A DNA stretch of 64,000 nt from Methylophaga sp. (lineage in GTDB: Bacteria > Pseudomonadota > Gammaproteobacteria > Nitrosococcales > Methylophagaceae): contig DRHW01000032.1 of assembly GCA_011053005.1 (NCBI GenBank), positions 1-64,000 on the forward strand, read 5' to 3'. This document shows, piece after piece, positions 40,190 through 63,028 of the stretch. A program made the translations under genes and the position numbers. Under the pieces are notes generated by a model that did no database searches, had not been told where the DNA came from, and was given only the letters and a program-made list of their open reading frames with translations. The first letter of the stretch is position 1. Every line of letters begins with the position of its first letter.

Positions 40190-40606
40190 TTAACTACATT
40201 CTCTGCTAACTACATTCTCTGCATGCTGAGGTAAATCATCTGTAATTTCGAACCATGGAGCTTTGCTCGCAACGAAAATATGACACTCAGCTTTTACTTC
40301 CGGATTGCTGTCGAGAGTTCCAAGTGGAAAACCATAGGTTTCAGGGTTTGCATCGAATTTAGTATAGATACTCGAACCGCAGTTCGAGCAAAACGCTTTA
40401 TGTTCGCCCGGAGACGACTCATAGAATTTAATTAACGCCTGACCTTCTACAGTGTGCCAGTTTGAAGATTTGACTTTAGCACGTGTTCTGAATGCTGAGG
40501 CATGGAGCTTCCTACACATTGAGCAGTGACAGTTCACTATGTCAGTCAATGGACCATTAATTTCGTATTTGATACCTCCGCAGAGACAACTACCTGTTTG
40601 CTTCAT
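40190..40606 (-). CDS. GFA (glutathione-dependent formaldehyde-activating) family protein
   Basis: The 138-residue protein has the zinc-binding Cys set: SCLCGGIKYE, CHCSMCRKLHA and the later FCSNCGSSIY. The start ATG at 40606 has GGAG eight bases upstream. The 3' end is altered: a perfect 16-bp tandem duplication (40191-40222) shifts the last codons to VVSRECS and a stop. With a single copy the frame would run on to VVKGQAVTTDK. The enzymatic role in this family is uncertain. It overlaps the AbiU2-like fragment by 4 bases. Confidence 0.8.
   Translation of the reverse strand: MKQTGSCLCGGIKYEINGPLTDIVNCHCSMCRKLHASAFRTRAKVKSSNWHTVEGQALIKFYESSPGEHKAFCSNCGSSIYTKFDANPETYGFPLGTLDSNPEVKAECHIFVASKAPWFEITDDLPQHAENVVSRECS
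40191..40222. repeat. 16-bp tandem duplication in the 3' end of the GFA gene
   Basis: TAACTACATTCTCTGC occurs twice head-to-tail at 40191-40206 and 40207-40222. Sixteen is not a multiple of three, so the copy shifted the frame of the last codons of the GFA gene. Confidence 0.85.
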
Positions 40607-40929
40607 TGATGTAACTCCGTGACATTAAACCAATCGAAGCTGACCCTATTGGTTTTTTCAAGCTGTTCATCGATCAATCTAATCGTAATATTTTCTAATA
40701 CGTTTCCATTGCGCTTAGTAGAAGCGGAGTCCATAAGTTTGCAAGCTTGAAGTATCCAATCACGATGCATTATCTCGGCTATATCACTAAAGAATGTTGC
40801 CGCCACTTTGCTTAATAAAGCTCTGTTCTCCTCGTTATAAAGCTGCGTATATGTATTGTAATTTTGTCGTAAATCTATGCAGTGATCTCGAAGAAGTTTG
40901 AAGTCGCTGATTAATTTGGACTTAGTCAT
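40603..40929 (-). CDS. Truncated AbiU2-like HEPN protein in an integron cassette
   Basis: The 108-residue protein starts MTKSKLISDFKLLRDHC and continues YNTYTQLYN...FFSDIAEIMHRDWILQACKLMD...NITIRLIDEQL. This resembles the N-terminal part of AbiU2-like HEPN-domain proteins, of which the full length is about 200 residues. The frame then runs into the 5' leader of the GFA gene and stops. The missing second half and the abrupt join suggest a deletion. Its start lies 8 bp past an attC, so the gene was a cassette. AbiU2 proteins are linked to abortive infection; activity here is doubtful. Confidence 0.6.
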   Translation of the reverse strand: MTKSKLISDFKLLRDHCIDLRQNYNTYTQLYNEENRALLSKVAATFFSDIAEIMHRDWILQACKLMDSASTKRNGNVLENITIRLIDEQLEKTNRVSFDWFNVTELHQ

Positions 40930-40936
40930 TTTGCAT

Positions 40937-40986
40937 GCCTAACGCCCGTATAAACTGCGGAGTCAGATTTAATGCGATTGTTAGGA
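40937..40986 (-). other. attC site of the DUF2971 cassette (detached array)
   Basis: On the minus strand the site begins with R'' TCCTAAC and ends with R' GTTAGGC (GTTRRRY). The inner part folds on itself (AAACTG...CAGATTT). Its 50-bp size is like that of short attC sites. The crossover point lies between 40943 and 40942. A matching attC near the integrase is 20 kb away (59805-59857). Confidence 0.7.
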
Positions 40987-41727
40987 TGTGTTTCCATACA
41001 ACCCTTTTTTAACAGGAATCGATAACTCAAATTTATCTACCAACGCTTGCACCACATCAAAAAACCAGCTTGACGCATCAGGATGTACGTAAATATCTTT
41101 AATAATTGTTTTTAAATTAACATGCATTTCTATGCCGATTGGAGTATTTACTGTTGGATTAATTGTTGAATAAGTTGATACAAACAGTCTTACCTCTTTC
41201 TCAAATTTGAAATGCGGTCTTTTTATAAAAAATGGACTTTCGTATGTTAGCTGTCCGAGGATGTCTTCAAGTTTTTTATATATAACAGGCTCAAAAGCAA
41301 CTTTGTATTTATATTTTTTGAGATCCTTTTTGCTTACGGACTCGGCAAGGTCTTTCACTGTCGTTTGTATTGCAACCGAGTTTTCAGTTTTTCCATAGAT
41401 TTCCCACATTACCATGTTCTCATCTAGATTTTGATGCCAGCAATTAATATATGCATTTTTGATCAAATGCTGCTGAAAATCGGTGGTGTTTTGAATGGGA
41501 CCATCTTTAGTATTTTCTTCCTTTTCAAACTCTTTATAAATCTTATCAAGAGTTTGTTTCATCTCCAGAGGAAACATTCCTTCATGCTTGTCTTTGAATG
41601 TATCTACTCTGGCCAGCCATAATGATTTTTTGCTTAGTAAAGAGATAAATTTTGATAAATCTAAGTACTTCCACAGGACTGTACCTTCATCGATCTCAGC
41701 ACTCTTAGCTATTAATTCAGGGAACAT
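40981..41727 (-). CDS. DUF2971 family protein, gene cassette
   Basis: The 248-residue protein has LWKYLDLSKFISLLSKKSLWLARVDTFKDKHEGMF, a central CWHQNLDENMVMWEIY (the Cys-Trp-His typical of DUF2971) and a VRLFVST segment. Function unknown; DUF2971 genes often sit in mobile or defence contexts. The start is 13 bp past a GTTAGG core and the stop is inside an attC, so the ORF fills its cassette (40943-41740). Confidence 0.85.
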   Translation of the reverse strand: MFPELIAKSAEIDEGTVLWKYLDLSKFISLLSKKSLWLARVDTFKDKHEGMFPLEMKQTLDKIYKEFEKEENTKDGPIQNTTDFQQHLIKNAYINCWHQNLDENMVMWEIYGKTENSVAIQTTVKDLAESVSKKDLKKYKYKVAFEPVIYKKLEDILGQLTYESPFFIKRPHFKFEKEVRLFVSTYSTINPTVNTPIGIEMHVNLKTIIKDIYVHPDASSWFFDVVQALVDKFELSIPVKKGLYGNTS

Positions 41728-41735
41728 ATATAAAT

Positions 41736-41753
41736 CCTAACTTGTTATTAACG
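41736..41753 (-). other. attI-like recombination site at the 3' end of the RND gene
   Basis: CGTTAATAACAAGTTAGG (minus strand) is an exact 18-bp copy of the attI sequence at 61890-61907, in the same orientation. The bases before it also agree in part. The crossover point (G/TTAGG) is at 41741/41740, where the DUF2971 cassette starts. The RND stop codon TAA is inside this site. Confidence 0.7.
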
Positions 41754-44700
41754 TGAATTATTACCGAAATTCCTTGCATTCCCCATTTTAGAAAACCTTC
41801 TCAAAAACGTAAGTACAGTAATCATCAAACTAGGTAAAAAGAATAATGTGATCAGTGTCGAGAATAATAGTCCAGATAAGACAACAATACCCACGCCACG
41901 ATAAAGTTCAGTACCTGCACCCGGAATAAAGACTAGCGGTGCTAAGCCAAAAATCGTGGTGGCAGTTGACATTAATATTGGACGAAGACGTGTTGCTACG
42001 GCTTGATTGACGGCATCTTTGATGCTGTTTTTACCATTCTCTAAATTTTTACGGGCTTGTTCAACGATTAATATCGGGTTATTGACGACGGTACCGAGCA
42101 AGATAATAAAGCCGAGCATGGTGATCATATCAAACGGTTGAACGATGGGATTAAAGCCAAGACTGGTGATGAGCGCCGCTGATGCATTAACACCAACCAA
42201 CCCCAAAATACCGCCAGCAATACCTAATGGAATGGTCGCTAATATTAAAAATGGATAGAACCAGTGTTTAAATATGGCGACTAATAATAGGTAGATAAGT
42301 ATCAAAGCAATGAGGAAGTTGCTTGATAATGAATCACGCGTTGCATCAAGTTGGTCAGCTGCACCAGAAATACTAATTGATACACCTTTGCCTATTTCGC
42401 CATCGGTTCGCATAGCAGGAATCATCTCGTCACGTACCATTTTAACGGCCGTTTCCAGTGCGATATCGCGAGGCGGAATAATAAATAATGTAACGGTTCG
42501 ACGACCGTCAATACGTCTTAATTCATCGCTATCGACCGTTTCAATAAGATCGGCTAAAGCATTAAGTGGTAATACGGTTCCGCTTGGTGTTGAAACGGGT
42601 TGTGTTGCGAGTTGTGACAAGGTTTGGTTTTGCCCTGAATTACTAAAGAGGAAAATATCAACTTTGTCGTCATCTAAAAAGAACTCGTCTACATAAGCGC
42701 CGTCACTCAATGCCGCCACAGTGTAGCCAAATTCATTGGCATCAATACCGAGTTCAGCTAAACGTTCCCATCTAGGCTGAACTTCTATTAAAGGCTGATC
42801 AAGCGATAATGTATTGGGATCAGAAGATATTTGTGCTTCGCTAAATAACTGCTGGGCCTTAAGTAATGCATTTTGTGTTGTCTGATATAACTCGGCTTGA
42901 TTAGCACCTGAAATATCAAGGTTAACTGCTCGTGAGCCACCATCATTACTAGAAATTATAGAACCGCGTGATGAGAATGCACGCATACCAGGATAGCTTC
43001 GAAACAGATCGGTGAGCGCTTTCATCATTGGCTCTATATCTTGTGACCGAGTTGGCTCAGCTAATACCCAAACATAGCCCGGCCCAACGCGTTGATAATA
43101 GTATTTTAATGAAGGTAATACGATATTGCCGTTATCAAATTCGGTTGGTTCTGCATTTAATGCTTTGGTGAGGTGCTCAATTATTTCATCCCCTATTTTT
43201 TGCATTTCAGTAAAATTATAGCCTGGGGGGGCAATCATATTAGTGAATGCTTTCGGCTCCTCACCTTCAGGTAGGTATTCGGCTGCGGGCATATAGTGCC
43301 ATGCGATACCGATGGTTAATATCGGTATTAATATTAACGACACTAATCGTGTAGTGAGCGATGAATTAAATGAATGAATAAGGTTCATTAAAAACACAGT
43401 GGATTTTGAGGGTTTTGTGTTTTGTTGTGTATTTAAGCCAAAATGGGCTGATGCCGCGGGCACGACGGCAACGGCAAATAACATTGAGGCGAGAATAGCA
43501 GTCGATACTGCAATGGCGATATCTGAATATAATTGGCCTGCTTCTTCAGTGACAAATAACACTGGTGCAAAGACTAAAACGGTGGTTAAACTTGATGCAA
43601 GTACCGCTGTCCAGACATCTTTGATCCCTTCTATCGCCGCTTCAAAGCGTTGTAATCCACGTCTTCGTGCTTGCTCAATACTTTCTAATACGACAATGGT
43701 GTTATCGACGGTCATGCCAATAGCAAAGGCAATACCGGCCATTGATATCACGTTAATGGTGCGATCAAAGACCAACAAACCAATAAATGCGGCAATGGTG
43801 CAAATCGGCATACCTATTAAGCCAATTAACGTGGCGCGACCTGAGCGTAAAAATAAAAATAGGATGAGTGTGGCTAAGAAACCACCAAGTATGAGGTTAC
43901 GCGTTACATTATCAATAGACTCTTCTACATAACGTACATCATCGCCAGTCAATTTAATGGTAAGCCCATTTGGTTCTAATTGATTCCTGCTGATTTCGTC
44001 TATCACCTGAGTCATGGCTTTTTTAATATTGATCACATTCGAACCAGATTCTCGTCTCACAGACAAGGTAAGAGCGTGTTCATTATTGACAATAGCAATG
44101 CCCCTACTTTCGTAGTGATCCAGCTTGACCTCAGCCACATCTTCTAATCGAATATCAGTGCCATTTTGATGGATCAGAATAAGGCGTTTTAAGCTGTCAG
44201 TATCTTTAAACCTGCCCGTTGTTCTAATCAGATAACGGCGCTTTCCTTCGTTTAAATCACCAGCAGAAGTATCATGATTACGCGCGCGAATGGCATCTCT
44301 TACATCGGTTAACGATAAACCACGATAAGCTAATTTTTCAGGGTCAATATAAATTTGAATTTGGCGTTCAGCGCCACCGCGTAAATTGACACTTGATACT
44401 CCCGGGACGCGTTCCATTAATGGCCTAACTTCATCATCAATGAAATCTGTCACCATTTGCATATCGAGATTAAATGGATTTCCTGGCAGCGGAGTAACCG
44501 CATAGTGCATAAAGGCATTTTCAGAAAAAGAACTACTAATTATTCGTGGTTGATTTACATTTTCTGGGTAGCTCGATACTTGGCTTAATGCATTGGTAAC
44601 TTCAATTAATGTCTCATTAATATTAATACCAGATGAAAATTCTAGCTCAACTCTCGCTTGAGAGGTTTCAGCCGTAGACTTCATTCTGCTTAAATTCGGC

Positions 44701-44915
44701 ACGCTACTTAAATAACGCTCTTGTTCAAGCAGAATTTCTTTTTCAATATCCTGAGGTGTAGCGCCAGGCCAACCGGTTATGACACTGATAGTTCGTACAT
44801 CGAGGTCGGGAATCATTTGTACGGGAATGCGTGAAGCGGCCGCAATACCAAGCACAACAATGATCAGGACGATAACGGTTAATAATTTCCCGTGATAAAT
44901 TGGACGAGTGATCAT
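41748..44915 (-). CDS. RND-superfamily efflux transporter (inner-membrane pump)
   Basis: The 1055-residue protein has 12 spans and two large periplasmic loops (about 30-330 and 560-870), the RND layout. TM4 reads FAIGMTVDNTIVVLE; most HAE-type pumps have Asp-Asp where this one has Asp-Asn, so one proton-relay acid is replaced. The later FIILLGTVVNNPILIVEQARKN is TM10. It lies 6 bp behind its adaptor gene. Its stop falls inside an attI-like site. The transport substrate is unknown; upstream Fur-box control suggests an iron-linked substrate. No TolC gene is near. Confidence 0.9.
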   Translation of the reverse strand: MITRPIYHGKLLTVIVLIIVVLGIAAASRIPVQMIPDLDVRTISVITGWPGATPQDIEKEILLEQERYLSSVPNLSRMKSTAETSQARVELEFSSGININETLIEVTNALSQVSSYPENVNQPRIISSSFSENAFMHYAVTPLPGNPFNLDMQMVTDFIDDEVRPLMERVPGVSSVNLRGGAERQIQIYIDPEKLAYRGLSLTDVRDAIRARNHDTSAGDLNEGKRRYLIRTTGRFKDTDSLKRLILIHQNGTDIRLEDVAEVKLDHYESRGIAIVNNEHALTLSVRRESGSNVINIKKAMTQVIDEISRNQLEPNGLTIKLTGDDVRYVEESIDNVTRNLILGGFLATLILFLFLRSGRATLIGLIGMPICTIAAFIGLLVFDRTINVISMAGIAFAIGMTVDNTIVVLESIEQARRRGLQRFEAAIEGIKDVWTAVLASSLTTVLVFAPVLFVTEEAGQLYSDIAIAVSTAILASMLFAVAVVPAASAHFGLNTQQNTKPSKSTVFLMNLIHSFNSSLTTRLVSLILIPILTIGIAWHYMPAAEYLPEGEEPKAFTNMIAPPGYNFTEMQKIGDEIIEHLTKALNAEPTEFDNGNIVLPSLKYYYQRVGPGYVWVLAEPTRSQDIEPMMKALTDLFRSYPGMRAFSSRGSIISSNDGGSRAVNLDISGANQAELYQTTQNALLKAQQLFSEAQISSDPNTLSLDQPLIEVQPRWERLAELGIDANEFGYTVAALSDGAYVDEFFLDDDKVDIFLFSNSGQNQTLSQLATQPVSTPSGTVLPLNALADLIETVDSDELRRIDGRRTVTLFIIPPRDIALETAVKMVRDEMIPAMRTDGEIGKGVSISISGAADQLDATRDSLSSNFLIALILIYLLLVAIFKHWFYPFLILATIPLGIAGGILGLVGVNASAALITSLGFNPIVQPFDMITMLGFIILLGTVVNNPILIVEQARKNLENGKNSIKDAVNQAVATRLRPILMSTATTIFGLAPLVFIPGAGTELYRGVGIVVLSGLLFSTLITLFFLPSLMITVLTFLRRFSKMGNARNFGNNSR

Positions 44916-44921
44916 AACCGT

Positions 44922-46004
44922 CTAATCTCTTGTTTGATTAATTGAGACGAGTTGCTCGTGATGAAGTACTTCATTACCACGGATGACAACTAAATCATCA
45001 ACACTCAAACCCTTTGTAATATTAACGCCTTCGGCCGTTGTCCGACCCAGTTCGACTTTACGACGTAAAGCCTTGTCATCTTTAATAATAAAAACGCTAC
45101 GACTGCCATCAGAGTTTATAAGCAATGCATCTCTTGGGATAAGTACCTGCTTATCATTCGTTATTTTTATATTAAACTCCGCTGTTGCTGATGTGCCAGG
45201 TAGTAACGATAAGGTTTTATTGTCGAGTGTCACTCTGACTAAAAATGCTCTCGCTAAGCTATTACTGACAGGAACGATGGACTGGATCGTCGCATCGAGA
45301 TGTTGATCGGGGTAAGCATCTGAAACGACACTGACGGTAGCGCCTCGATTGATGTCAGCAAAATGTTCTTGTGGCACATTAATATCTAATCGAATTTCAT
45401 CAAGATTAACCAGTTCAAGAACAGGATTGCCACGACTCACCCACTCCCCCACTTCTGACATTTTATTGCTGATTACGCCTGAAAAAGGCGCGATGAGTTC
45501 ATGTCGACGTAACGTTTCTTCTATTAGTGCTTGCGATGCATTAGCGGATAATAGTTCTGCATTTTTTAACGCTAAGTTGGCCTTACGTATCGCTAACTCA
45601 TTTTGTGGCAGCGTTTTTCGAGTGACTAAACCTTGGGCCTCTTTTACCATCCTGTCAGCTTCACTGCGATCAGCAATGACTCTTGTGACGGTGGCTTTAG
45701 CTTGCTTTAGCTCATATTCACTCATCACGGGATCAAGCAGGAGTAATACGTCACCTTTTTTAACGTGGCTGCCCGAATCGACATTAACTTTGGTAATCAG
45801 TCCATCGACTCTCGGTGACAGCATGCTATGTTTTTCAGCGGTTAACGAGCCTGAAAGTCTTAGTATTTGACTGCTAGATGAGATAACGGGTTTGATAACA
45901 TCCACGACCATATTTTCTTTAGCTTGGCTAACTGAAATTAGGCCAGATAAAATGAATAAACAAAAAGTATAAAAAAATGACTGCAGGCAATAACGACTAG
46001 ACAT
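44922..46004 (-). CDS. RND efflux periplasmic adaptor (membrane fusion protein)
   Basis: The 360-residue protein has a signal/anchor segment (about 8-28), then a barrel-hairpin-lipoyl layout: LSPRVDGLITKVNVDSGSHVKKGDVLLLLD is the lipoyl half-motif, followed by a coiled-coil hairpin (about 90-150) and IAPFSGVISNKMSEVGEWVSRG as the second lipoyl half. It is the first gene of the pump operon, 6 bp before the RND gene. AAGGA before ATG 46004 supports the start; a Fur-box-like site lies ~80 bp upstream. Confidence 0.9.
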   Translation of the reverse strand: MSSRYCLQSFFYTFCLFILSGLISVSQAKENMVVDVIKPVISSSSQILRLSGSLTAEKHSMLSPRVDGLITKVNVDSGSHVKKGDVLLLLDPVMSEYELKQAKATVTRVIADRSEADRMVKEAQGLVTRKTLPQNELAIRKANLALKNAELLSANASQALIEETLRRHELIAPFSGVISNKMSEVGEWVSRGNPVLELVNLDEIRLDINVPQEHFADINRGATVSVVSDAYPDQHLDATIQSIVPVSNSLARAFLVRVTLDNKTLSLLPGTSATAEFNIKITNDKQVLIPRDALLINSDGSRSVFIIKDDKALRRKVELGRTTAEGVNITKGLSVDDLVVIRGNEVLHHEQLVSINQTRD

Positions 46005-49176: not shown

Positions 49177-49462
49177 CTGGCTTCCTTTAATGGTTTTTCA
49201 ATTACTTACTTCTGCTTTAAATTTCTAGCACACATGTGGAGTATAGCGTTTCACAGTTTAGTGTCGTGACTTGTTATTAGGGACAATAATATTCTATAGA
49301 TAAATCAACGTTAATGACCTGTTAGTCAAAAATCAAGCAAAAAAGGCGAATTATCAATGACCTGTAAAACTCTTAGTTGATGAATCAATGCTTTTATCGA
49401 CAGCATGCTTCAATAAAGGTTTGTTAATCTTTTTTTAGTTTGCTACATGTGCTTAAACTAAG

Positions 49463-59804: not shown

Positions 59805-59857
59805 GCATAACGCCAAGCGCAGCGGAAAATTTGTCCGACAGAAGCGCCTTGTTAAGT
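59805..59857 (-). other. attC site of the third cassette (end of the main array)
   Basis: On the minus strand it runs from R'' ACTTAAC to R' GTTATGC, with AAGGCGCTTC...TGGCG arms folding on each other; 53 bp. The crossover lies at 59811. It ends the main cassette array: past it, no further attC is seen until 40986. Confidence 0.8.
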
Positions 59858-59858
59858 T

Positions 59859-60692
59859 CTATTCGTACCATGAAGAAGTATCTACATCTAGCTCTTCAGA
59901 TTCGACGGTAAATTCTTCAGGGTTGTCTACATGAGACTTCATATTCAACGTGAAGGGGTAGCATTCATTTATTTCGCAAAGATCGTCCTTCGGCCCATAT
60001 TCTTGTGTGACATGTACATTACCACTGGCAACCACATAGATAAATTCATTATCAATTCCCGTGCACTCAATCTCTTCAACTTCGGTGTATTCAATATAAA
60101 CATGATTCGCAAGAAGCGACAAACTATCGGGTATAGCGCTCACAGCGGTAGAAATAACAGCCTCTCTTACCTTTTCTTCAAGCGCTTCGATAACAATTCG
60201 CTCAAGATCATTTAATTGATTTAGAGAATCCTTTGCTATTTCTATAACTACTTTTGCATCATGAAAAAACGACTTCGGCGAAACATCAAAATACTTCTCT
60301 GTTATATGCGTATATTTATTGAAGAAATTGAACTCGCCAAGAAACTCAGAAATACACTCACTCAAATGCTCAAGTACGGCTTCGCCAAGGTAAGCATCTG
60401 ATATATTTGATTGCGCGCAGTATTTAATCTGCTGCCTTCTTGTAACCTCATGCCTATCACTCTCGCGCTCATACCAAATAGCATTTTTTACCTGCTTAGG
60501 TGGTGCTTTTCTTTGAATTACATGCAATACCAGCTCTCTCATCGAGAAAGCAAAATTGTGAAATCTTAGAGGATTACCATGCGACGCATAATTTCTTAAG
60601 CTAGCCACAAATAGTCGATTTTCGAATTCTGTCTCCAGAAGAGACTGAAAACCTTGCATGAAATCCAGTGACAATAGTTTTTTGAGCTTCAT
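59859..60692 (-). CDS. Cassette protein resembling the predicted pPIWI-associating nuclease family
   Basis: The 277-residue protein is the only gene of the third cassette (59811-60711). NPLRFHNFAFSMRELVLHVI, then AIWYERESD and KYTHITEKYF form an all-helical first half. The second half is beta-rich, with HFxx-like HVYIEYTEVEEIECTGID, a PFTLNMKSHVDNPEEFTVE stretch and the ending DTSSWYE. This layout and ending recall the family named 'predicted pPIWI-associating nuclease' (pP_pnuc), usually found beside prokaryotic Argonaute-like or other defence genes. No Argonaute is nearby. The match is from memory of the pattern, not a search. Confidence 0.5.
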   Translation of the reverse strand: MKLKKLLSLDFMQGFQSLLETEFENRLFVASLRNYASHGNPLRFHNFAFSMRELVLHVIQRKAPPKQVKNAIWYERESDRHEVTRRQQIKYCAQSNISDAYLGEAVLEHLSECISEFLGEFNFFNKYTHITEKYFDVSPKSFFHDAKVVIEIAKDSLNQLNDLERIVIEALEEKVREAVISTAVSAIPDSLSLLANHVYIEYTEVEEIECTGIDNEFIYVVASGNVHVTQEYGPKDDLCEINECYPFTLNMKSHVDNPEEFTVESEELDVDTSSWYE

Positions 60693-60705
60693 GCTCCCCC
60701 TGAGA

Positions 60706-60783
60706 ACTTAACGCCCAAGCTCAGCCGCATTCTTGCCGTAGCGAAGCGGAGGCAAGAACGTCGGCTGGAGCGCCTTGTTGGGC
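60706..60783 (-). other. attC site of the second cassette
   Basis: On the minus strand it runs from R'' GCCCAAC (60783-60777) to R' GTTAAGT (60712-60706); 78 bp. The inner arms TTCTTGCC/GGCAAGAA fold into a hairpin. The crossover is at 60712/60711. Confidence 0.9.
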
Positions 60784-60787
60784 TTGC

Positions 60788-61090
60788 TTAGCCGGGTAGC
60801 TTCGCTGCAAGCACGTCAACTTTCTCGATTGACGGCGGCTCGGAGAACAACTCACCGGCTTTTGCCATTAACGCCGCAGCAACCTTGCCCGACAGATGCG
60901 CTTGTCGGCCCGCTTCATTGGGGAAGGCATCAAAGATTCCGAAGGTTTGTGGCCCAAGGCGTATGCCAAACCAAGCGGTCGTGGCTGGCTCTTCCATGAC
61001 GATGGGAAGACCACTCATAAGGAAGCTCTCAACCTCTTTCTCTTTTCCAGGTTTCGCTTCGAGGCGAACGAACAACGCTACTTTGACCAT
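60788..61090 (-). CDS. Antibiotic biosynthesis monooxygenase (ABM) domain protein, gene cassette
   Basis: The 100-residue protein starts MVKVALFVRLEAKPGKEKEVESFL, with TAWFGIRLGPQTFGIFDAFPNEAGRQAHLSG, the usual ABM ferredoxin-like layout. Such proteins act as small cofactor-free monooxygenases or as haem- or quinone-binding dimers; substrate unknown. It fills the second cassette (60712-61148) and has no promoter of its own that I can see. Confidence 0.88.
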   Translation of the reverse strand: MVKVALFVRLEAKPGKEKEVESFLMSGLPIVMEEPATTAWFGIRLGPQTFGIFDAFPNEAGRQAHLSGKVAAALMAKAGELFSEPPSIEKVDVLAAKLPG

Positions 61091-61142
61091 GACATATCTC
61101 CTATTGTTGTGACGACATTACTATACGCTACGTTTCTTGCAA

Positions 61143-61259
61143 GCCCAACGCCGCGCTCAGGGGCGGACAATGCTATGCACCTTTGTGCGAAAATGGGAGC
61201 GCAGCGACCAGCACAAAGGTGCATAGCATTGGCCGTCCCTCTGCAGCGCTTTGTTAGGC
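61143..61259 (-). other. attC site of the first cassette
   Basis: On the minus strand it runs from R'' GCCTAAC (61259-61253) to R' GTTGGGC (61149-61143); 117 bp. Its long middle part is a 21-bp inverted repeat (CAATGCTATGCACCTTTGTGC is the arm, 20 bp of which begin at CAATGC). The crossover is at 61149/61148. The stop of the first ORF is inside the R'' box. Confidence 0.92.
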
Positions 61260-61865
61260 GCGATTTCCAGATTTCTGAGTTTGGTCCGCATCTTGTAGTA
61301 TTTTTATACCGCCACGAATCACCACGATTGATATTATTGTTCCCACAATTAGGTCGGGATAGCGACTGCCAACGATGGCAACAAGAACACCAGATATAAT
61401 TACCCCCAAGTTGGCAATGACATCATTTGTTGAAAATATCCACGAAGCGCGCATGTGTACGCCGCTATCTTTGTGCTTGGAAATGAGAATTAAACAAATG
61501 ATGTTTGCCAGGAGGGCAACCGCACCGACAACAATGATAAGAGTGCTTTGAGGTTCACTGCCAAAAAACATACGCCTGATCACTTCGAATAAAACGCCAA
61601 GCCCCAAAATTATTTGTAGGTAACCGCTCACTCTAGCCGCCTTTGCTTGCTTCACGACTCCTTTCCCAACTGCATATAGTGACAGACCATAGACAGTAGC
61701 ATCAGCTAGCATATCTAGCGAGTCAGCGATAAGCCCGGTAGATTGCGCCAACCAGCCCAGCGTTAATTCAGTAACAAACATAAATGCATTGATAGATAAC
61801 AGAATGATGAGAGTTTTCTTTTCCAGACTCTCCGCTTGTTCTGCCCCACAACCACAATCTGACAT
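61254..61865 (-). CDS. CDF-like cation transporter, first gene cassette
   Basis: The 203-residue protein is a short member of the cation diffusion facilitator superfamily with about six spans. LIADSLDMLADATVYGLSLYAVG carries the D-x-x-x-D metal site of TM2, and FSTNDVIANLGVIISGVLVA the site of TM5 (N-D). There is no cytoplasmic C-terminal domain. It starts with a Cys pair (SDCGCGAE). It is the cassette next to attI (61149-61894), the position that is transcribed best. Metal is unknown; Zn, Co or Cd are the usual ones. Confidence 0.87.
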   Translation of the reverse strand: MSDCGCGAEQAESLEKKTLIILLSINAFMFVTELTLGWLAQSTGLIADSLDMLADATVYGLSLYAVGKGVVKQAKAARVSGYLQIILGLGVLFEVIRRMFFGSEPQSTLIIVVGAVALLANIICLILISKHKDSGVHMRASWIFSTNDVIANLGVIISGVLVAIVGSRYPDLIVGTIISIVVIRGGIKILQDADQTQKSGNRA

Positions 61866-61889
61866 ATTTCCTCCTACTTCAGTAAGGCG

Positions 61890-61907
61890 CCTAACTTGTT
61901 ATTAACG
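61890..61907 (-). other. attI core of the integron
   Basis: The minus strand reads CGTTAATAACAAGTTAGG followed by CGCC; the core GTTAGGC (GTTRRRY) is the crossover (61895/61894) at which the first cassette was inserted. It lies 87 bp from the intI start, as expected for attI. The boundary of the full attI is not defined here. Confidence 0.8.
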
Positions 61908-61913
61908 GGAATA

Positions 61914-61993
61914 ATAATTCCCTGTAATTTATATACATATACGGACTATAATTCCCTGTAATTGAATAATCAAGTAAAAAGCAGGAATTATTA
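61914..61993 (+). promoter_or_regulatory. Repeated motif and possible promoter before intI
   Basis: ATAATTCCCTGTAATT occurs at 61914-61929 and again at 61948-61963, 34 bp apart. The reverse-complement form (CAGGAATTATTA) occurs at 61982-61993, right before the start codon. A TATAAT at 61947-61952 is a candidate -10 box. They probably serve IntI binding (direct repeats next to attI) or regulation of intI. AGGAA before the ATG is the ribosome-binding site. Confidence 0.5.
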
Positions 61994-63028
61994 ATGGCCT
62001 ATCAAATACCTCCTTCTGAAAAAGCGCAATTTAAACCTCATTCGATTCGTTTGATGGATCAAGTGAGGGAGGTGATGCGCTATCATCATTACTCAATCCG
62101 AACAGAGGAAGCTTATATTAAGTGGATCCTTGCATTCATACGTTTTAATGGTAAGCAGCATCCGAAGTCGTTGGGTAAGCGTGAAATTGAAGGTTTTTTA
62201 TCTGACATGGCGGTGAATAAGAACTATGCGGCATCAACACAAAGCCTTGCCCTAAATGCCATTGTGTTTCTTTATAAGCGTGTTTTAGATTTACCTATTG
62301 CCGATGATTTAGAGCCTACACGCTCAAAAAAGGCTGTTCGTTTGCCTGTTGTGTTGAGTAAAACGGAGGCCGCTCAGATTTTATCTGCAATGACAGGTGT
62401 CAATGCATTGTTAGCAAAGCTGATGTATGGCGCAGGTTTACGAGTGATGGAGTTACTTCGTTTGCGAGTCCAGGATATTGATTTTGCCAATGGGTACTTA
62501 ATCGTACGTGATGGTAAAGGTGGCAAGGATAGGTCAACATTATTAGCTCAATCAATTGTGCCTGAGTTGAAGGCGCACTTAGTGGAAATAAAAGCGTTGT
62601 TTGAGCAAGATCGTGCAGACAATGTTGCGGGCGTTTATTTACCCAATCTGTTGGATAAAAAGTTTCCAAATGCAGGTGTGACATGGGGTTGGCAATATGC
62701 TTTTCCTTCTAAAACATTATCAACGGATCCCCGAACGGGAGCGATCCGACGTCATCATTTAGATGAGTCCGGTTTAGGAAAGGCGTTGCGTGCAGCGAAA
62801 GTTAAAGTGGGGATTGATAAACGCGTGACATCACATATATTTCGACATTCATTTGCCACGCACTTGTTGGAAGCGGGTACCAATATTCGTGTAGTACAAA
62901 AGTTATTGGGCCACGCTGATGTGAAAACGACCGAGATTTATACTCATGTTTTGCAACAAAATCTTCAGGCAGTGACAAGTCCTCTAGAGTTGATTCAGTC
63001 TGCGATTGACAATGATTCATCCTCTTAA
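61994..63028 (+). CDS. intI: Integron integrase IntI
   Basis: The 344-residue tyrosine recombinase has the catalytic set R150, K178, H281, R284, H307 and Y316 (GAGLR, HIFRHSF, LLGHADVKTTEIYTHV). It has the integron-specific insertion at about 216-255 (LPNLLDKKFP, GVTWGWQYAFP, STDPRTGAIRRHH), which distinguishes IntI from XerC/D. The gene is intact, so it should be able to excise and insert cassettes at attI. It is divergent from the array. It is not class 1: no qac/sul 3' segment is near, and the host genes around it are chromosomal. Confidence 0.96.
   Translation: MAYQIPPSEKAQFKPHSIRLMDQVREVMRYHHYSIRTEEAYIKWILAFIRFNGKQHPKSLGKREIEGFLSDMAVNKNYAASTQSLALNAIVFLYKRVLDLPIADDLEPTRSKKAVRLPVVLSKTEAAQILSAMTGVNALLAKLMYGAGLRVMELLRLRVQDIDFANGYLIVRDGKGGKDRSTLLAQSIVPELKAHLVEIKALFEQDRADNVAGVYLPNLLDKKFPNAGVTWGWQYAFPSKTLSTDPRTGAIRRHHLDESGLGKALRAAKVKVGIDKRVTSHIFRHSFATHLLEAGTNIRVVQKLLGHADVKTTEIYTHVLQQNLQAVTSPLELIQSAIDNDSSS

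Follow-up and report, generated by a model that had tools for sequence, protein, structure and literature searches.

A probable remnant of a solo attI site behind an RND permease gene, and a dispersed promoter-attI module in Methylophaga

Two attI cores in one window

The window, i.e., the whole 64,000-nucleotide stretch of Methylophaga sp. contig DRHW01000032.1 that was analyzed, includes an intact intI gene (61994-63028, plus strand) coding for an integron integrase of 344 amino acids. The product is a genuine IntI-type tyrosine recombinase (TIGR02249, 425 bits, cut-off 265). Beside it, on the minus strand, lies an intact module combining a promoter-like sequence and attI, which extends from beside the intI start codon to the crossover G (61895-61993; 106.9 bits with covariance model R1) and whose edges were derived from 50 independent contexts. 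It comprises the cassette promoter (Pc) candidate TTGATT-17-TATAGT, conserved across the module family (61945-61973), the inverted repeat GGGAATTATTATTCCC (61907-61922), the arms of which covary in other copies, and an 18-bp attI core (61890-61907) with the crossover between 61895 and 61894. Three cassettes follow on the same strand: cassette 1 (61149-61894) encodes a CDF cation efflux protein and has its attC at 61260-61143; cassette 2 (60712-61148) encodes a 100-aa protein without Pfam match, with its R'' box at 60785; and cassette 3 (59811-60711) encodes a predicted pPIWI-associated nuclease, with its R'' box at 59859. The 5' end of a cassette, GTTNNNNN, has to be the reverse complement of the R'' box of that same cassette, and in cassette 1 the R'' box CGCCTAAC at 61260 matches the 5' end GTTAGGCG. 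An attI beside intI and, behind it, cassettes that have attC and matching R'' boxes make this locus an integron.

About 20 kb from the integrase gene, the minus strand carries an RND permease gene (41748-44915) and that of its membrane-fusion partner (MFP; 44922-46004). RND-MFP is a conserved chromosomal pair, the two genes being adjacent in three relatives as well. At the 3' end of the RND gene the 18-mer CGTTAATAACAAGTTAGG occurs at 41753-41736, identical in 18 of 18 positions and in strand to that at 61907-61890. An earlier note on this DNA had reported this copy of attI, and its coordinates proved correct. The crossover lies between 41741 and 41740, and the boundary of a cassette coincides with it, so that a core equal to that of the resident attI stands at the 5' end of this cassette. 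In the three RND orthologues (90, 85 and 80% identity in G006, G020 and G024, respectively) the gene ends differently, the last 10-15 residues being divergent; they contain neither the 18 bp nor cassettes behind. The result that the earlier note had named as contradicting it, the same 18 bp in relatives free of an integron, was looked for in this comparison and not found. The resemblance to these genes tapers off around 41785, and the sequence beyond this point, GGGGAATGCAAGGAATT..TAATAATTCACGTTAATAACAAG, can be aligned with the attI side of the integron. As the homology to the orthologues ends where the likeness to attI begins, the last residues of the RND protein and its stop codon are encoded by an attI remnant, which corresponds to the right half of the module (41741-41784), is fused in frame to the RND gene and provides its TAA.

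The 30 nucleotides further upstream of this core are also module-like, only 4 of 1000 30-mers from the window scoring as high. Against the full covariance model the remnant alone reaches only 16.9 bits (E 0.9), about 44 bp of the right side being recognizable, so that reading it as a remnant relies on the exact core, on the cassette starting at the crossover and on the genus-wide context. A full upstream module with a cassette promoter is not present here: no promoter-like site was found on the minus strand near the remnant, whereas the intact copy at 61.9 kb has one. Transcription of the DUF2971 cassette would hence have to come by read-through from the RND operon. At this locus, no orthologue was found to have a fuller module.

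The first cassette behind the remnant (40943-41740, minus strand) contains a DUF2971 gene (CDS 41727-40981; PF11185, 26 bits). Its boundaries are those previously proposed; its 5' end GTTAGGAT is the reverse complement of the R'' box ATCCTAAC at 40987, and its attC (about 40987-40937) is short, about 50 bp, and foldable. The start of a second cassette had been claimed as well, and an AbiU2-like cassette is indeed there (40603-40942, minus strand; CDS 40929-40603; PF18734 above the gathering score). It is truncated: the HEPN fragment of 108 aa matches about 80 of 193 profile positions, and no R'' box for it was found within 8 kb. Two of the cassette genes of the window are defence-like, the predicted pPIWI-associated nuclease gene of the intI array (59859-60692, minus strand) and the truncated AbiU2-like HEPN gene behind DUF2971 (40603-40929, minus strand).

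A scan of the window allowing up to three mismatches gave no 18-mer match besides the two copies (0.05 in shuffled sequences). The 2.89-Mb genome contains the same two exact copies of CGTTAATAACAAGTTAGG and one copy with two mismatches. A first-order Markov model predicts 1e-4 exact 18-mers per genome; TTAGG being cassette sequence, the fair test is the 13 bp to the left of the crossover, for which the expectation is 0.16 per genome. By analogy with IntI1, which very efficiently excises an attI1-flanked cassette (PMC12901181), the 20-kb deletion between the two direct copies that had been suggested is conceivable.

A third module copy, decayed, about 12 nt shorter and missed in the earlier note, occurs in the same orientation at 49267-49367 (minus strand; E 2.7e-4 in the window and 34 bits with model R1). 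It is flanked by a GNAT acetyltransferase gene and by that of a 180-aa protein of no known family. No cassette is recognizable behind it.

The Pc-attI module and its cassettes in the genus

When the attI core was used as a search pattern, copies were found in 15 of 29 genomes of the genus, and a reversed control pattern gave none. Most of these copies are the right end of a longer repeat of about 100 bp, made up of the sigma-70-like promoter TTGATT-17-TATAGT, an inverted repeat with covarying arms and the attI core. A covariance model built from copies picked by their exact core, the invariance of which is for this reason partly due to selection, identified 87 module copies (counted from the match table) at E<=1e-4 in 19 of the 29 genomes. 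Five modules were found by the genome search in the genome studied here, to which two unlisted ones in the window are to be added, the 49.3-kb copy and the RND remnant. Outside the genus, 2 genomes (G159 and G301) matched among about 270 other gammaproteobacteria sampled, the module being near genus-specific. G159, from another genus, has two related modules (L258, L261) whose inverted repeat differs (CCATG..CATGG) and in whose fetched flanks intI was not found, which means that solo attI sites may occur outside this genus as well.

In 50 non-redundant contexts, conservation begins sharply about 3 nt from the position that the intI start codon has in integrons and ends at the attI crossover. 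These sharp edges at both ends define the module as the region between intI and the first cassette. Most copies stand behind the 3' end of a chromosomal gene. The genes upstream are in many cases unrelated to one another and oriented like the module (fbp, nasA-like, mscS-like and kdsB-like, as named by sequence likeness), and the left edge overlaps the fbp stop codon in G001. Further genes in the genus are followed by decayed modules, one example being fbp in G006. Module identity is 0.70 within and 0.68 between genomes, so that recent bursts are not clearly indicated for the family as a whole. No matching inverted termini were apparent by eye when the copies were aligned, and reading the module as a MITE was tentatively rejected.

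Some copies share further sequence with one another. About 100 bp more are common upstream (TTTCGACCCAAAGCAGACATT..GGGAAGTAAGCC) to the modules of G006:C7, G014:C56, G001:C78, G042:C10:59982 and G006:C28, an intergenic repeat which may have travelled along with them. In G024, the solo module of C97 and the intI-linked module of C168 are followed by the same 55 bp with a strong hairpin, GTTAGGACGGAACCG..CGGTTCCGTCCTAAC, where both contigs end, and a similar hairpin stands behind a module in another genus (L268); this hairpin is possibly an element targeting att sites.

A second dispersed attI type was searched for as well, with only 3 matches in 2 genomes. In G024 contig 181 (L208, 1560-1300) an unrelated attI type, that of the G004 integrase, stands alone behind fbp. 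As fbp carries the first attI type in G001 and the second in G024, the end of this gene may be a hotspot.

Most module copies have no integrase gene beside them. In the upstream DNA (up to 4 kb) fetched for 63 loci, intI is intact at 3, present as remnants at 3 (G021:C10, G004:C86 and G042:C12) and without trace at 57. An IntI above the family cut-off was found in 11 of the 29 genomes, one in each, a figure to be read taking into account that these genomes are mostly draft assemblies or MAGs, from the bins of which intI can be absent. G042 (99% complete, about 20 contigs) has 16 module matches and no integrase.

Downstream of the crossover, a true cassette should show its own R'' box with a GTT following it, a test which can be applied where the GTT end of the module is intact and the sequence behind it is long enough. 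Thirty of the 50 testable module copies have their own cassette downstream, compared with 4-6% for control keys. In pairs of related solo sites, which have the module and the DNA upstream of it in common, homology ends within 15 bp of the crossover in 8 of 9 cases (at +2, +3, +3, +3, +5, +7, +7 and +15 bp); G007:C16 and G023:C93, for instance, are 91% identical over 1202 bp, ending at +2. The first cassette is common to both loci in one pair. Breaks at the crossover are what site-specific cassette exchange at solo attI sites would predict, and they indicate that cassettes turn over there. Where this is seen in genomes without intI, turnover must predate the loss of the gene.

Origin of the RND site

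The reading that we favor, with a probability of about 0.78, is that the RND site is what remains of a solo attI platform, one of the approximately 100-bp modules served by the IntI of a single locus or by an ancestor's IntI since lost. IntI from one locus would act in trans on all attI copies, recognizing each of them and inserting and exchanging cassettes at G^TT, and each intact copy would bring its own promoter and so express its first cassette. Platforms would be frozen in lineages that lost intI. At the RND locus, a deletion has probably cost the module its promoter half and the RND gene its end, attI now supplying the stop codon. Duplication of attI, one of the three options put forward in the earlier note, is the one nearest to this evidence, although not as a single local event, since dozens of dispersed modules exist in the genus.

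How the modules came to be dispersed is a separate matter. Movement of the module without intI is favored by its invariable left edge and by the fact that most loci are free of intI traces, loss of intI in place by the fragments of this gene at three loci. It may be that the Pc-attI region is itself a dispersing unit of about 100 bp that settles behind host genes without intI, one integrase feeding a dozen scattered platforms in trans, in what would be a polycentric integron with the RND site as a worn member; we give this even odds. A further contribution by homologous recombination of DNA that carries cassettes is suggested by tandem pieces in which a gene 3' fragment is joined to a module and cassettes (nasA-like in G000, kdsB-like in G042, fbp in G021 and G004). 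In G000 contig 12 (9033-19931), the nasA-like 3' part occurs three times in tandem, twice with module and cassettes and the third time without, which looks like the integration of a circle with the gene end, the module and the cassettes. No clean empty site was obtained: the G023 site orthologous to G007:C48 holds an apparent decayed module, and although fbp is without a module in most genomes, these are too diverged for the junction to be placed.

Alternatively, every solo platform, the RND site included, would descend from a complete integron whose intI was lost on the spot, and modules would never have moved without this gene. The three loci that retain intI fragments beside the module fit this view, as does the commonly held opinion that clusters of attC sites lacking integron integrases (CALINs) are degraded integrons (PMC9024848), and the module, as the intergenic region between intI and the cassettes, would remain under selection after the loss. 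We consider this possible, but rather doubtful: at 57 of 63 loci no intI trace was found in the fetched upstream sequence and yet the module is well kept, its left edge is identical in 50 unrelated contexts and overlaps the fbp stop codon in G001, and integrons would have had to arrive independently at least a dozen times in each genome.

It is unlikely that, as the earlier note had also considered, the RND stop region is a secondary site of the attG type, in which case IntI would have put the DUF2971 cassette into native RND 3' sequence resembling the attI core by chance. Insertion of cassettes genome-wide at attG sites has been published (cited in PMC12901181 and PMC12444791), the RND orthologues show neither site nor cassette, and the expectation for the 13 bp left of the crossover makes a chance look-alike possible if IntI searches the whole genome. 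However, attG sites are said to differ greatly from attI (PMC12901181), and a site without likeness to attI or attC is not what the RND end presents, with an exact core and a further 30 nt that are also module-like; moreover, other genes of the genus, such as fbp in G006, are followed by decayed modules.

The third option of the earlier note, a split array in which DUF2971 and the second cassette once stood behind cassette 3 of the intI array and were parted by an insertion of about 18 kb, is very improbable despite the shared orientation and the identical 18-bp core, as a split would leave attI with one half only and here both halves have it, RND-MFP is a chromosomal pair in three relatives, and a decayed module lies between the two copies, with solo modules all over the genome.

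Relation to known integron systems

In the current understanding, an integron has a single integrase and, beside it, a single attI at which new cassettes land and are expressed. The 61.9-kb locus, with its intact IntI, promoter, attI and three attC cassettes, resembles a sedentary chromosomal integron (intI-Pc-attI-cassettes), and the solo sites share its G^TT crossover and cassette logic. Unlike known sedentary integrons, which have one primary attI near intI (PMC9024848), genomes of this genus contain up to 16 modules, mostly without intI.

In Xanthomonas, seven loci distant from the ilvD integron have CALINs (PMC12444791). As in the genus studied here, cassette loci without intI occupy several conserved chromosomal positions, and those of Xanthomonas can be mobilized in trans by a functional IntI (PMC12444791). 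A CALIN is defined by a cluster of attC sites, by default two or more, without neighbouring intI, and is viewed as a degraded integron (PMC9024848); the RND locus has one complete attC, with intI 20 kb away, and several attC were seen at some other solo loci. That definition is restricted to attC, whereas the loci described here are headed by a conserved promoter-attI module and often have a single cassette.

In common with attG insertions, the RND site has a cassette outside an integron, at a gene end; attG sites strongly differ from attI (PMC12901181), whereas the site here is attI, with a promoter in intact copies. A short piece of attI between a gene and the next cassette, as at RND, is known from the delta-attI-type cassettes of class 1 and class 2 integrons (PMC12901181). 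In these the upstream gene is a cassette with its attC replaced, whereas the RND gene belongs to the chromosome and has a conserved partner gene, and the intact solo modules are 100 bp long and include a promoter. We rejected the reading of RND as such a cassette because RND-MFP is a conserved chromosomal pair and the upstream gene is not a cassette.

No description of dispersed, orphan or additional attI sites was found in the open-access papers searched; dispersed Pc-attI platforms are therefore provisionally new to the literature. attI sites outside class 1 are poorly described and are not detected by IntegronFinder 2 (PMC9024848), and current finders miss such platforms because these sites are not modelled. 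Were a single integrase to serve numerous attI platforms with promoters of their own, cassettes would be captured and expressed in first position in parallel and chromosome-wide. This would change how CALINs and single cassettes are read, and it may show where cassette loci without intI originate.
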